Shown: one piece after another, positions 50,697 through 54,520 of the stretch
How positions within the stretch are numbered: the stretch's first letter is position 1
Layout: the number at the start of each line of letters is the position of its first letter
NCBI RefSeq assembly: GCF_024707545.1
Contig: NZ_CP062229.1
Span: 4,693,501 to 4,757,500 of the forward strand
Direction: 5' to 3'
Length of the DNA: 64,000 nucleotides
Source: Mesorhizobium onobrychidis
GTDB taxonomy: Bacteria > Pseudomonadota > Alphaproteobacteria > Rhizobiales > Rhizobiaceae
Made by a program: the position numbers and the translations under genes
The notes under the pieces: model-generated
Databases searched by the model: none
Told to the model about the DNA's origin: nothing
What the model saw: only the letters and a program-made list of their open reading frames with translations

Positions 50697-50857
50697 CTAG
50701 GATTCACCCCCACTCGCTGCTGTGAAGCGAGGGAACAGCGTACGCCCTGCGATCGCTCCACCCATGCGGTCCGAAACGGGCAGTGGCAGGGCCTTATCGA
50801 GAGCCTCGAGGACGGAGGCGACGAAGGCCCGGTTGAGGCTGCCATCATCCCCTAGAC
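50697..50857 (-). pseudogene. 3' fragment of a split exported TonB-C-like gene
   Basis: Read on the minus strand it encodes LGDDGSLNRAFVASVLEALD, then KALPLPVSDRMGGAIAGRTL, then FPRFTAASGGES and a stop. It continues in frame from the 5' fragment at 54269-54520 once the intervening 3.4 kb is removed. The join falls in the direct repeat CTAGAC. Upstream of the junction the frame runs into insert DNA and has no start that would make sense. Confidence 0.85.
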
Positions 50858-51344
50858 TAAACGGGCAGTTCCACAGGAGAAGCGGACGTTGGGACGTTAT
50901 CTGCCGAACTTCCGGTTTTGGCGCAACCCCGACCTCCAGCGTCATCGCCGCCGATGTCTGCTTTCGGAAGCGGAAGCTGATCTCTACGGCCGACATGGGG
51001 CGCAAAGCGGTCATTGCGCGCCGCGCGATGAGTCGCCAATGGGGTCCATCTCAAGATCTTGGCGCGAGTTGGACGACAGCATCATCCGCCTGACCAAGCG
51101 ATAGGGGAACTAGTTCACAGTTCGGAATCGGCTAAGTAGTTGTAATTGTTAAATGCAGAACCTGTGAACCAAAATGCGGTGGTTCACAGCTTCGGAGAAA
51201 AATCGCTTGAAGAGAACGCTATGGCCCTCTCAGCCTCCGATGCAGTTCACAGGTTTTCTGTCGGAACCGCGCAGAACACGGGGATTCCGAGCGGCAGCAC
51301 GGCAATCGGAGAATAGTTCCGCAGACCGACTGGCGGAGGGAAGG
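50858..51344. other. Left noncoding part of the islet
   Basis: About 490 bases without a convincing gene. It contains repeated GTTCACAG octamers (listed separately). Some short open frames occur but none has both a ribosome site and recognisable content. Confidence 0.5.
51113..51252. repeat. GTTCACAG octamer cluster
   Basis: GTTCACAG occurs in direct orientation at 51113-51120, 51182-51189 and 51245-51252. The first two copies extend to gttcacag(c)ttcgga. An inverted copy ctgtgaac at 51162-51169 pairs with the second to form a stem with a loop of about 12 bases. It could be a protein-binding array or a remnant of an element end. Confidence 0.5.
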
Positions 51345-51599
51345 GTGCTGGAATCCAACATTCTCCACATCGGGCCGGTCGATCCGCGAGGCCGCCGCCA
51401 CATAGTCATGGACCGGACGCCCAACAGCAAAATTCTTTCACTCGATGTCGAGGTGGAGACCGAGCAACTGCTGAAGAACGAGAAGGCGGCCGGCTATTTT
51501 GTGGTCAGCCACGGCCGCAACAGCGAGGCGGAAGCAGCACTCCGCCTCGGAACGCTCGTGATTGAGGGGCCCTCGCTTCCTTGTCCTTTTCTCTTTTGA
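51345..51599 (+). CDS. Small hypothetical protein in the islet
   Basis: 84 aa starting with GTG at 51345, preceded by ggagggaag. The sequence contains ILHIGPVDPRGRRHIVMDRT, ILSLDVEVETEQLLKNEKAA and a C-terminal SLPCPFLF. No family recognised. The frame is open further upstream but without a start signal. It ends 45 bases before the pepsin-like gene on the same strand, so the two may be co-transcribed. Confidence 0.4.
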   Translation: MLESNILHIGPVDPRGRRHIVMDRTPNSKILSLDVEVETEQLLKNEKAAGYFVVSHGRNSEAEAALRLGTLVIEGPSLPCPFLF

Positions 51600-51643
51600 G
51601 GGTATTCTCGATCGTAGCTATCGGAAGATTGACGGAGGGTTGC

Positions 51644-52735
51644 GTGAGCGGACTCAGGTATCATTCTTGGTTTCGAGGCGTCATCGTATTCCCGGCTTTT
51701 CTTGGAGCGTTATTGTGCCACGCCCTCTCATCTAGTTCAGCGCAAGAGCTGCCTTTGAATATTCCCTTGATAAAATTAGAGTACCCGGGAACTCCTCAAA
51801 ATATTCGCATGCTGTATATCAATATATTGTTTCTTGGATATCGAAAGATAGCTCAACCGCTCCTATTTGACACTGGATCGAGCGGGATGACTATCGATTG
51901 TACCGTTGTACTTCCTACGAAGATGTGTTCAGAAAAAGGAATAAAGATCAAGAAAACTTTCGAATTAGATGGATTGACCGTCACTACTCAAAAAACTGTC
52001 ATGCACTATGGAACGTACGATGAGTATGGCAATGTGGCGTCCGCCCGCGTGATCTTTGGATCGGCGGACTCGGCTGCATCTACCGCCGTGTCTATCCCCT
52101 TCCTTATCCGCTACAAGGAAGTTAGGCGCAGCACAGGTGAAGTTGTCGGAGGCCCGCTCTGGCCAAAAGGAATCTTTGGGGTCTCGCCGCTTGGCGGTGG
52201 CGGACCAAATCAAATGTTGAAGTCACCCCTGAACTCGGTAAGTGCGGGGAACGGCTTGCGACAAGGGTACTTTCTTTCACCGATCGGGACAGATTGGAAG
52301 GTCTGTACAAATGAAGATTTGAATTGTCCACAAATTGACGCCCTTCATATCGGGTTATCAGATAGTGTAAAGAAGGATTTTAAAATAAAGAAATGGGAAA
52401 GAGCCAGTAAGAACTATAATTTTCCAACAACCGAGGCTTGCATCTTCTGGGGAAAAAAGCCAATATGCCGACCGACACTGTACGATACAGGCAACTCGAC
52501 AATTATGGTTGCCGGCGGGCCGCCAAAGAAACCTGGTTTATCATTGGATACTGGGGTCAATGTTACTGTAACGTCCCCGAACCATGACGAGTGGAGGTTC
52601 ACCACCACATACAAGCCAGAGGTTGAGTTCGTTCCGCAAATTGAGCATCACATTATAGGCGTACGATATTTTGAAACGAATAGCTTGCTGTTTGACTTAG
52701 AGAGTAAAGAAATCGGCTTCCGCATTGGAAAGTGA
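51644..52735 (+). CDS. Exported pepsin-like aspartic protease (A1-type) homologue
   Basis: 363 aa. The GTG at 51644 has GGAGGG 5 bases upstream and gives a signal peptide (GVIVFPAFLGALLCHALSS, then SSAQE). The mature protein shows both aspartic protease motifs: QPLLFDTGSSGMTID (Asp76) and TLYDTGNSTIMVAGG (Asp281), spaced about 205 residues apart compared with 183 in pepsin. A pepsin-like GIFGVSPLGGGG lies between them. The C-terminus HIIGVRYFETNSLLFDLESK plus EIGFRIG mirrors the pepsin end (LGDVFLR, FD, IGFA). Cysteines are present but spaced differently. Codon use is clearly AT-richer than the neighbours, a sign of transfer. No obvious propeptide or TM anchor. Confidence 0.72.
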   Translation: MSGLRYHSWFRGVIVFPAFLGALLCHALSSSSAQELPLNIPLIKLEYPGTPQNIRMLYINILFLGYRKIAQPLLFDTGSSGMTIDCTVVLPTKMCSEKGIKIKKTFELDGLTVTTQKTVMHYGTYDEYGNVASARVIFGSADSAASTAVSIPFLIRYKEVRRSTGEVVGGPLWPKGIFGVSPLGGGGPNQMLKSPLNSVSAGNGLRQGYFLSPIGTDWKVCTNEDLNCPQIDALHIGLSDSVKKDFKIKKWERASKNYNFPTTEACIFWGKKPICRPTLYDTGNSTIMVAGGPPKKPGLSLDTGVNVTVTSPNHDEWRFTTTYKPEVEFVPQIEHHIIGVRYFETNSLLFDLESKEIGFRIGK

Positions 52736-53063
52736 AAACCGGCCGGGTCGATCTGATGCCATTGCTAAGGTGCGTGTAGCGCTTGTTGCCGCCGACCTTG
52801 CCGGCGGCTGCACTGGCCGTCCCGTGCTTGCGCTGTGACACTTCACGACGCTCGCAGCGCTACACCGAACGTCGTCGCCACAGCCCGGCACGTCTGGCCC
52901 GACGCAATGGCAGCAACCACGCATTCGCAAAGATCGGGGAATATGTCACCGTCCCGCAAATTGTGCCCATTCTGCACTAAGGTTTGGCGCGTGTCAGCCC
53001 GAGCCCTCCACAATCGTCCTTGCGGCCGGAATTCTCGTCCACAAATGAGGACCGTTCGTTAAA
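52736..53063. other. Noncoding islet segment
   Basis: About 330 bases between the pepsin-like gene and a small minus-strand frame. A short minus-strand frame (near 52750-52841) encodes SQRKHGTASAAAGKVGGNKR, but its start and context are not convincing; it may be the remnant of a larger gene. Confidence 0.4.
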
Positions 53064-53273
53064 TTAGGCCGGCCAGAAGTAATAGACCGCCACCATGTTG
53101 GCGGCGGCCGCCGCCGTCAAAGCCGGCAGGGATGGCCGCCAGATCGCGAAAGCAGCGAGCGCCAAGGCGATTGCCGATGCCGTCCACGCGGTGCTGATTT
53201 CCTCATTCAGGACGACTGGCGCACCAGTGCCCGGCAGCGTTGCCTGAAAGGCGGGATTGGGCTCAACCGCCAT
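53064..53273 (-). CDS. Possible small membrane protein
   Basis: 69 aa from the ATG at 53273 (a GTG at 53306 is also possible). It has two hydrophobic segments, TAWTASAIALALAAFAIW and ALTAAAAANMVAVYYFW, so a two-span membrane protein is plausible. No family recognised. Its composition is host-like. Confidence 0.4.
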   Translation of the reverse strand: MAVEPNPAFQATLPGTGAPVVLNEEISTAWTASAIALALAAFAIWRPSLPALTAAAAANMVAVYYFWPA

Positions 53274-53306
53274 GCCTGCCGGGGCACCGGTCAGAGCAAA
53301 ACACAA

Positions 53307-53746
53307 CCCGCCCCGACATGAGCAGCCTGCTCGATTATGGTTAACGAATTCTCAATGCCGCCGCATCGTTTCCGGCTGGCGCGACAGGATCGAACAGGAA
53401 AAACGAACGTGTCACCGACCAATCTGCTTGAAGAAAACGAAACGTGCGTCCTGGGCCGTCTCTGTGGCAAGGAAGGGCTATCTAGGCAAGCTGCACGCTG
53501 ACTGGAAGCACCCGTTGCGATTTTATTTGGCGTTTGCCCTCCACTGTATTTGGTGACATGATCCCATCGCTGGTTTCGGCCAGCGAGCGATGAAGCGCTT
53601 GTTGTCACAGCGGATCGCCAGAGCAGAGCTTGACAGCACCCTTCAGTGGGTCCGTTCAACAGCGCCAGATGCGATACGCAGAGCGGCAGCGCCGAATCGA
53701 ACAGGGGCGACCGGAGAAATTCGATCGCCTCTTGCTTTTCCGGCCT
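53307..53746. other. Noncoding islet segment
   Basis: About 440 bases. No gene with a credible start is seen on either strand. Composition is mixed. Confidence 0.4.
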
Positions 53747-53980
53747 TCAGGTCCGGGTGGACATGATTTCAGTCCCTGCCTGTCGCTTCAATTTGACAGC
53801 GTCCACCAGTCCAAGCTTGTCAAAATCTTCTTCCGTCAACTTCGTTTGCGACAGAACCGTGACGCTTTCGCACTGGGCTAACACCTTCGCCTGTGCGACC
53901 TCTTTATCGCGAACCCCAACGATAAAGTGTCGTGTCTTCCCACGATCTTCTACCGCGATTTGCCAACCGGTTCCGGACAC
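53747..53980 (-). CDS. Small hypothetical protein
   Basis: 77 aa. MSGTGWQIAVEDRGKTRHFI and VGVRDKEVAQAKVLAQCESV, then TEEDFDKLGLVDAVKLKRQA. It resembles short rhizobial proteins that open 'GW-AVED-...-YIVG' and have an alternating beta-alpha pattern. The ribosome site aggag lies 4 bases before the ATG at 53980, which makes it the best-supported small gene of the islet. Function unknown. Confidence 0.65.
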   Translation of the reverse strand: MSGTGWQIAVEDRGKTRHFIVGVRDKEVAQAKVLAQCESVTVLSQTKLTEEDFDKLGLVDAVKLKRQAGTEIMSTRT

Positions 53981-54268
53981 ATGAAACTCCTATGCCTTGC
54001 GGTACGCATATAGGAGCGGGGCCGGAAGCGACAACGTCAGAGTTCGGGGGAGTGCCCGCTGCCTTGATGCTCGATCGCGCAATTTTATTGGCGGTGTTGC
54101 ACTATCCGTACCCATCGCAATGTGTTGTGAGATGCGAAAACGCGGCTCCCAAACGCTGAGATTGAAAGCGTCCTGGTTTTCTCGGACTTCATGATTATTC
54201 GCATTCATGCGGTGCACTCTGGAACGAGATAGTCGAAAGCTTCAACTGGGCTGATTTAGCTTCTTCGC

Positions 54269-54520
54269 CTAGTCTAGACGGGAGTAAGTGGCGCGAGGCT
54301 TGCCGATAAGCGTGCCGTTTCGGCGAATTGAGAACTGCAGCGTCAGGGTCATGCCCGCGGTTCCGGGCGGCGACTCCCAACAGGCGACGATCGCGGAGAA
54401 CATCTCGTTTATGGTGTCGACGGGATCGGGACTGCGACAGCCGCGTTCCTGCGATGTTGCCGCGTTAGGACCGGCAACCAGGGCAAGGGCAAGGGCGGCA
54501 ATTGCGGACCGAGGTTTCAT
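54269..54520 (-). pseudogene. 5' fragment of a split exported TonB-C-like gene
   Basis: From the ATG at 54520 (GGAG 7 bases upstream) it encodes a signal peptide (RSAIAALALALVAGPNAATS), then ACWESPPGTAGMTLTLQFSI and RRNGTLIGKPRATYSRL before reaching a stop two codons into the insert. The 'GMTLTLQFSIRRNGTLIGKP' region resembles the TonB C-terminal-type beta pattern of small rhizobial exported proteins. Joined to 50697-50857 the product would be 133 aa. Confidence 0.85.

Follow-up and report, generated by a model that had tools for sequence, protein, structure and literature searches.

A divergent pepsin-like protein of Mesorhizobium, a putative exported aspartic endopeptidase with remote relatives among alphaproteobacteria

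A gene in the window (the whole stretch of 64,000 nucleotides of Mesorhizobium onobrychidis DNA analysed here) probably encodes, at a likelihood of about 0.7, an aspartic endopeptidase that is exported, acts as a two-lobed monomer and would work like pepsin. The gene is accessory in Mesorhizobium and occurs at several chromosomal sites, and profile comparisons suggest that its family is a remote member of a larger set of exported-looking DTG/DTG proteins found in alphaproteobacteria. The curated libraries miss this exported-looking bacterial pepsin-like group, of which the rhizobial family is a branch. A preliminary description of the sequence as that of a pepsin-like protein is partly supported: it was right in kind, as indicated by the conserved family, the link to the structure 4EHC, the weak link to the pepsins and the six cysteines, and off in its framing. 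The picture of a stray enzyme with the shewasins as its nearest kin is not supported, the family having members in Mesorhizobium and Rhodobacter in addition to the wider alphaproteobacterial group.

Gene and conserved motifs

The coding frame (P0001; Table 1) contains, in order, the segments LLFDTGSSGM (with D76), YGTYDEYGN, KGIFGVSP, CRPTLYDTGNSTIMV (with D281) and HHIIGVRYFETNSLLFDLESKEIGF, and its C-terminus has IIG followed by FDLESKEIGF. The two aspartate motifs are 205 residues apart within a single chain, and the A1-type features, namely a pair of hydrophobic-preceded D-[ST]-G motifs and the hydrophobic-hydrophobic-Gly motifs of both psi-loops, are present. The gene and its motif order, which the preliminary description had likened to pepsin in the succession of both DTG motifs, GIFG and the C-terminal FD...IGF block, are confirmed as real and beyond chance: two hydrophobic-hydrophobic-D[ST]G motifs spaced by 150-230 residues were found in one of the 88 ORFs of at least 200 aa in the window, P0001 alone, and in 4 of 20,000 shuffles of the 384-aa frame that starts from a TTG at 51581. 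The N-terminus, judged by eye, is of the export type that had been described, and D76 follows the putative cleavage site after about 42 residues.

Table 1. Features of the pepsin-like gene and of the block carrying it, in window coordinates
Feature	Position	Strand	Basis or conservation
Gene for the pepsin-like protein (P0001, 363 aa + stop)	51644..52735	+	Open frame, GTG start
GGAGGG, Shine-Dalgarno-like, 4 bases ahead of GTG	51634..51639	+	Sequence inspection
Putative signal peptide, residues 1-33 (R11; hydrophobic 12-28; SSA before Q34)	51644..51742	+	Inspection by eye
First motif, D76-T-G-S	51869..51880	+	D76 16/16, T77 15/16
Y122 in YGTYDEYGN, candidate flap tyrosine (role of pepsin Tyr75)	52007..52009	+	Y122, Y125, Y128 16/16
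First hydrophobic-hydrophobic-Gly, I177-F-G	52172..52180	+	G179 16/16; residue 178 Phe/Ile 16/16; residue 177 Ile 15/16
Second motif, D281-T-G-N-S	52484..52498	+	D281, T282, N284, S285 16/16; G283 15/16
Second hydrophobic-hydrophobic-Gly, I337-I-G	52652..52660	+	16/16
Inserted block, about 3.4 kb, carrying the pepsin-like gene	50858..54273		Same site empty in relatives
CTAGAC, left border	50852..50857		Sequence
CTAGAC, right border	54274..54279		Sequence

Homologues were found in 15 of 146 Mesorhizobium genomes (own genome counted), the 14 others having 57-68% identity to the window protein, and in Rhodobacter sp. SW2 (51% identity); the window genome has a single copy. D76, D281, G179, G339 and six cysteines (C86, C95, C221, C228, C266 and C275) are invariant in the 16 aligned sequences. 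Of the cysteine pairs, one follows closely on the first DTG and another directly precedes the second DTG, an arrangement also seen in pepsin. Three tyrosines of the flap region (Y122, Y125 and Y128) are invariant, yet the alignment with other groups is uncertain there, and Y122 is the one we infer to serve as flap tyrosine. The residue that departs from Ile at position 177 is a Thr in G440. The homologue of G406 (L003:5945-6930) matches in two frames close to its 5' end, which may reflect a frameshift or an error in sequencing.

Outside the genus, a protein search of an order-level sample and a profile search of a class-level sample returned the own genome alone (1 of 397 and 1 of 385 genomes, respectively), and SW2 itself was the only one of 248 genomes in its taxonomic family. 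No homologue was found in the plasmids and phages searched by protein, nor in the viral contigs searched with both the protein and the family profile. A scan of genome contigs found 4 loci and, as is clear from the genus search, missed most members.

Proposed mode of action and catalytic integrity

Export, disulfides, catalysis and role of the protein are predicted as a scheme in which the preprotein would leave the cytoplasm through its signal peptide and three local disulfides, C86-C95, C221-C228 and C266-C275 (a probable pairing), would stiffen the protein once it is in the oxidising envelope. A single water molecule would be activated jointly by D76, in the N-lobe, and D281, in the C-lobe, each of them held by a psi-loop with a conserved hydrophobic-hydrophobic-Gly, and a flap with Tyr122 would cover the active site. 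The enzyme would probably process or degrade proteins that are secreted or reside in the periplasm, acting perhaps inside the plant or in acid soil. With about 42 mature residues ahead of D76, a prosegment of the pepsin type is unlikely. The two-lobed fold is predicted from the sequence, because the AlphaFold model made on 16 close relatives, consisting mainly of strands, was of low confidence (pLDDT 40.5, pTM 0.34).

It is unlikely that the protein is instead a catalytically altered or non-proteolytic relative, which would have kept the pepsin fold and bind peptides or polymers in the manner of the plant xylanase inhibitors. Such a function would suit the change of motif 1 to DAG in G504 (L016; T77A) and of motif 2 to DTA in G434 (L008; G283A), as well as the only signal that Pfam gives for the window protein, TAXi_C at E 0.029, which is below cut-off; however, both aspartates are conserved in 16 of 16 members, both DTG motifs are intact in 14 of 16, window copy among them, and dN/dS is 0.06-0.12 in five of six pairs (two of these saturated, with dS >1), although such values are compatible with any retained function. 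The closest pair (G434/G531), in which few sites differ, has a dN/dS of 0.46. The DTA and the DAG member both have close relatives with intact motifs.

Genomic context and origin of the gene

The pepsin-like gene had been described as AT-rich compared with its neighbours and carried on an insertion, and both statements hold. Its GC content is 46.6%, against 57.4-66.9% in the 62 one-kb bins of the window outside 51001-53000, and the block around it is missing in related genomes. Eight loci, taken from 60 genomes with the neighbouring MFS gene, were compared with the window: the flanks are joined in five, with an overlap of 4-6 bp, and lie about 30 bp apart in two, the remaining locus being aligned on the left side only. 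The CTAGAC at both borders suits a short target duplication, but may also be due to chance; the border word occurs once in each of the five empty sites, as CTAGAC in two, CTAGAT in two and CCAGAC in one. The MFS gene flanks the block on the left, and on the right are a small ORF and the gene for a class-V aminotransferase. This small exported-looking ORF (54541-54269, minus strand, 90 aa) ends just past the right border and its versions in L054 and L056 are about 50 residues longer, so that the insertion seems to truncate it. Among the loci compared, homologous loci match the block only in its gene part (from 51744). A scan of six small ORFs of the insertion gave no mobility gene, the best match being Dmrt1 at E 0.13.

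In the left part of the insertion, window positions 50905-51043 are a dispersed repeat that recurs at eight more places of the own genome (71-82% identity), and positions 51129-51368, with repeated GTTCACAG words, are 70% identical to G000:C1:4426091-4426333. Two gene-like small ORFs in the insertion, 53747-53980 and 53064-53306, both on the minus strand, have no Pfam match.

A different neighbourhood was found in 11 of the 14 other genomes of the genus, where the homologue is located upstream of groES, 228-267 bp away and in the same orientation (L023, L024, L025, L026, L027, L028, L029, L031, L032, L033 and L034). The gap between the two genes contains a perfect CIRCE operator in 11 of 11 loci, identified by the CIRCE consensus; groESL is therefore separately controlled and hardly in one operon with the pepsin-like gene, an arrangement that was rejected. 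The window copy forms one clade with those of G440, G448 and G518 (support 100/99), and no groES was found in the stretches examined around these copies. The window genome has seven long groESL-like matches (G000:C1 5118009, 7185521, 7082363, 3146784, 5351312, 2202071 and 6431537) and one of 200 bases.

Given the insertion and the patchy presence of the gene, its horizontal movement is likely, as the preliminary description had supposed, and there is no sign of a eukaryotic donor in the prokaryotic and viral collections that were searched for homologues. A recent acquisition from a eukaryote, either plant or fungus, is very unlikely: it would be in keeping with the low GC content, the insertion and the patchy distribution, but the whole family is bacterial and GC-poor (46.6-57.3% in the 16 genes, 56.7-66.6% in their flanks, the gene being lower than its flanks in 16 of 16), its profile links lead to bacterial exported-looking proteins, and the family profile alone finds no eukaryotic pepsin in the PDB. 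As the collections were prokaryotic and viral, bacterial matches were to be expected anyway.

Curated families and remote relatives

The window protein, rightly described as divergent, lies under all Pfam and NCBIfam cut-offs and has no match at all in NCBIfam. The PE-PGRS C-terminal aspartyl peptidase-like domain (PF20729) gives weak matches in 12 of the 16 members (best E 0.0022, under cut-off), P0001 not being among the 12, and NF038019 in five of the 16 (best E 0.012, also under cut-off). PF00026 matches two of the 16 members, none of them the window protein, with a best E of 0.12 that does not reach the gathering cut-off; the window protein is therefore not filed under MEROPS A1. Searched in the window genome (E 0.01), PF20729 did not recover the pepsin-like protein; over 299 genomes of the phylum it matched seven, none above cut-off, and one of 14 control genomes passed. 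Two further candidates were rejected: the multi-domain PF00026 protein L060, found in one of 277 genomes of the GTDB family, has no link to the pepsin-like family, and the sole trace of a defence role is PDC-M08B at E 0.029.

Alignment A2 was built from four exported-looking DTG/DTG proteins out of seven PF20729 matches, leaving out L064 (DUF3443), L066 and L067. Searched with its profile, 179 genomes of the order gave matches in 14, two of them by short stretches only, with five matches in G085; in the window genome (E 0.001) it did not recover the pepsin-like protein, and L090, a locus from this search, gave no tblastn match. By hhalign, the 16-member family matched ten A2 proteins with a probability of 96.8 (E 2.2e-10, 258 columns) and L095/L097 with 97.1 (E 5.8e-11, 287 columns), with the DTG motifs in register in both cases, and the best values among 60 column-shuffle controls each were 2.6 and 2.0, respectively. 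With the four A2 proteins the probability was 96.4, whereas none of 100 shuffles exceeded 1.0 and the reversed profile gave 0.1, and A2 proteins taken singly gave 96.2, 15.5, 12.2 and 1.6. The profile similarity to the A2/A4 group (A4 being the joint profile described below) is nearly full-length, again with the DTG motifs in register, at 16-24% identity between the family and the rows of the group. The A2 rows have no counterpart of about residues 217-232, nor of a stretch before the flap. In a tree of 36 sequences, which carries a long-branch warning, the family is one clade (100/100) beside L095/L097 (99/99).

Several proteins of the A2 search are longer than 1000 aa, and the three examined whole carry the autotransporter barrel PF03797 (E 5e-50 to 7e-66). 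A2 matches the passengers of these proteins with a probability of 100 (E 2e-45), and direct comparison of the passengers with the family reaches only 5.2; the link between family and passengers therefore runs through A2 alone.

Solved structures

The 16-member family profile alone found no protease in the PDB, its best match being a kinase-like chain at 0.72. The joint profile A4 was made of the 16 family rows and 20 others, leaving out L091 and L064. By whole-chain values, its first match was 4EHC, the PE_PGRS16 domain (E 4.1e-9), followed by cod pepsin (0.002), BACE2 and aspergillopepsin (0.015), and HIV protease, gastricsin, renin and BACE1 (0.03-0.15); the best 60 of the 124 PDB chains are, by name, all 4EHC, pepsin-family or HIV-type proteases. 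Taken stretch by stretch, only the first half of the alignment with 4EHC is significant (7e-6) and the second has 0.33, with both DTG motifs aligned in order. With cod pepsin the two DTG stretches have 1.3 and 5.8 in the correct order, with BACE2 the C-terminal block has 3.7 and a DTG match at 60 is crosswise, and with aspergillopepsin the second half fails to align. For the group as a whole, these profiles provide good evidence of kinship with 4EHC, and a consistent, weak trend suggests kinship with the eukaryotic pepsins. When the two DTG segments within the family are compared, they align with a probability of 16, a value without shuffle control.

A single-lobe retropepsin-like dimer, such as RloA or APRc, is highly improbable: tethered HIV protease dimers are matched (best E 0.0012) by the profile of alignment A2, not by that of the window family, but one chain of the window protein has two conserved DTG motifs at the spacing given above and the profile links span both halves. 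Equally improbable are chance motifs in an unrelated exported protein, which would account for the low model confidence and the lack of a curated family match, but not for the rarity of the motif pair among ORFs and shuffles, the distance of the hhalign scores from the shuffled controls or the list of proteases from the joint-profile PDB search.

Comparison with known aspartic proteases

The PE_PGRS16/PecA domain (PF20729, NF038019; 4EHC) resembles the putative two-lobed endopeptidase in its export, which is predicted for the window protein, in its two D[TS]G motifs and as the top PDB match of A4, with both halves aligned. It differs in that the window protein has no PE domain, no PE family having been found in its Pfam scan, and in the six invariant cysteines and the YGTYDEYGN segment of the window family. 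PecA of Mycobacterium marinum, a protein of the PF20729 kind, may by analogy be taken as the nearest worked example for the pepsin-like family; in the account given in PMC6819658 it is a protease active at the cell surface, with one DTG and one DSG motif, which cuts itself and is required for the processing of LipY, and earlier work recounted there had found no activity for PE_PGRS16.

With the pepsin family (MEROPS A1/PF00026, including pepsin, BACE and renin), the window family shares the order of DTG, hydrophobic-hydrophobic-Gly, DTG, hydrophobic-hydrophobic-Gly and FD block. The window protein has hardly any space for a pepsin-type prosegment, and three residues after the second Asp its family has Asn, whereas pepsin has Thr. 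The residue at this position is described as Ala in six of seven bacterial homologues (PMC2761423). The shewasins are likewise bacterial and have two DTG motifs and, as is probable for the window protein, no prosegment. Published descriptions set them apart: they are reported to have no signal peptide and to be mainly cytoplasmic (PMC2761423, PMC4814920), with the lack of a prosegment described for shewasin A and the mostly cytoplasmic location for shewasin D (PMC4814920), whereas the window protein has an export-type N-terminus by eye and six invariant cysteines.

The homologues of Sinorhizobium medicae (Smed_3492, 368 aa) and Marinomonas also come from plant-associated bacteria; compared by description, they differ in their reported D53, F97 and D243 and in having no signal peptide (PMC2761423). 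Both belong to the A1 homologues that the 2009 survey of Rawlings and Bateman describes in seven bacterial genomes, none of them with a signal peptide and all predicted to be intracellular according to that account (PMC2761423). The RloA retropepsin-like peptidases are described as clan AA peptidases that bacteria export and that contain a disulfide, and as being of the retropepsin type with one DTG lobe per chain, in contrast to the two DTG motifs of the window protein (PMC12239564). In a literature search that left most subscription journals outside its scope, no paper was recognised as treating the pepsin-like family.

A possible class of pepsin-type proteins in the bacterial envelope

As a tentative generalisation, to which we give somewhat less than even odds, two-lobed pepsin-type proteases may be a general, barely annotated class of the bacterial envelope and surface, comprising free exported forms, autotransporter passengers and the PecA branch, all of bacterial descent. 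If this is true, two-lobed pepsins would be ancient and common among bacteria, as opposed to having arisen in eukaryotes with only occasional bacterial strays. The putatively exported rhizobial family, with its cysteine pairs and its profile ties to a group that includes autotransporter passengers and resembles a mycobacterial surface protease, would supply a bacterial set for testing the origin of the two-lobed fold. It also puts forward candidates for proteolysis in the envelope of nitrogen-fixing symbionts.

L064:1159-2502 (plus strand) encodes a DUF3443 protein that has both a DTG and a DSG motif and is possibly another pepsin-like family; as a relative of the present one it was rejected, hhalign giving 1.5 with L064 as a single sequence. 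No mention of DUF3443 was found in the literature searched, which was mostly without subscription journals. The autotransporters are encoded at L098:182-3661 (plus strand), L099:992-4450 (minus strand) and L100:1074-4304 (minus strand), with open frames of 1160, 1153 and 1077 aa and an A2-group DTG/DTG domain as the passenger; these passengers have no Pfam name above cut-off except for a PATR repeat in L100. Exported-looking DTG/DTG proteins with open frames of about 350-430 aa are present at L061, L062, L065, L080-L085 and L092.
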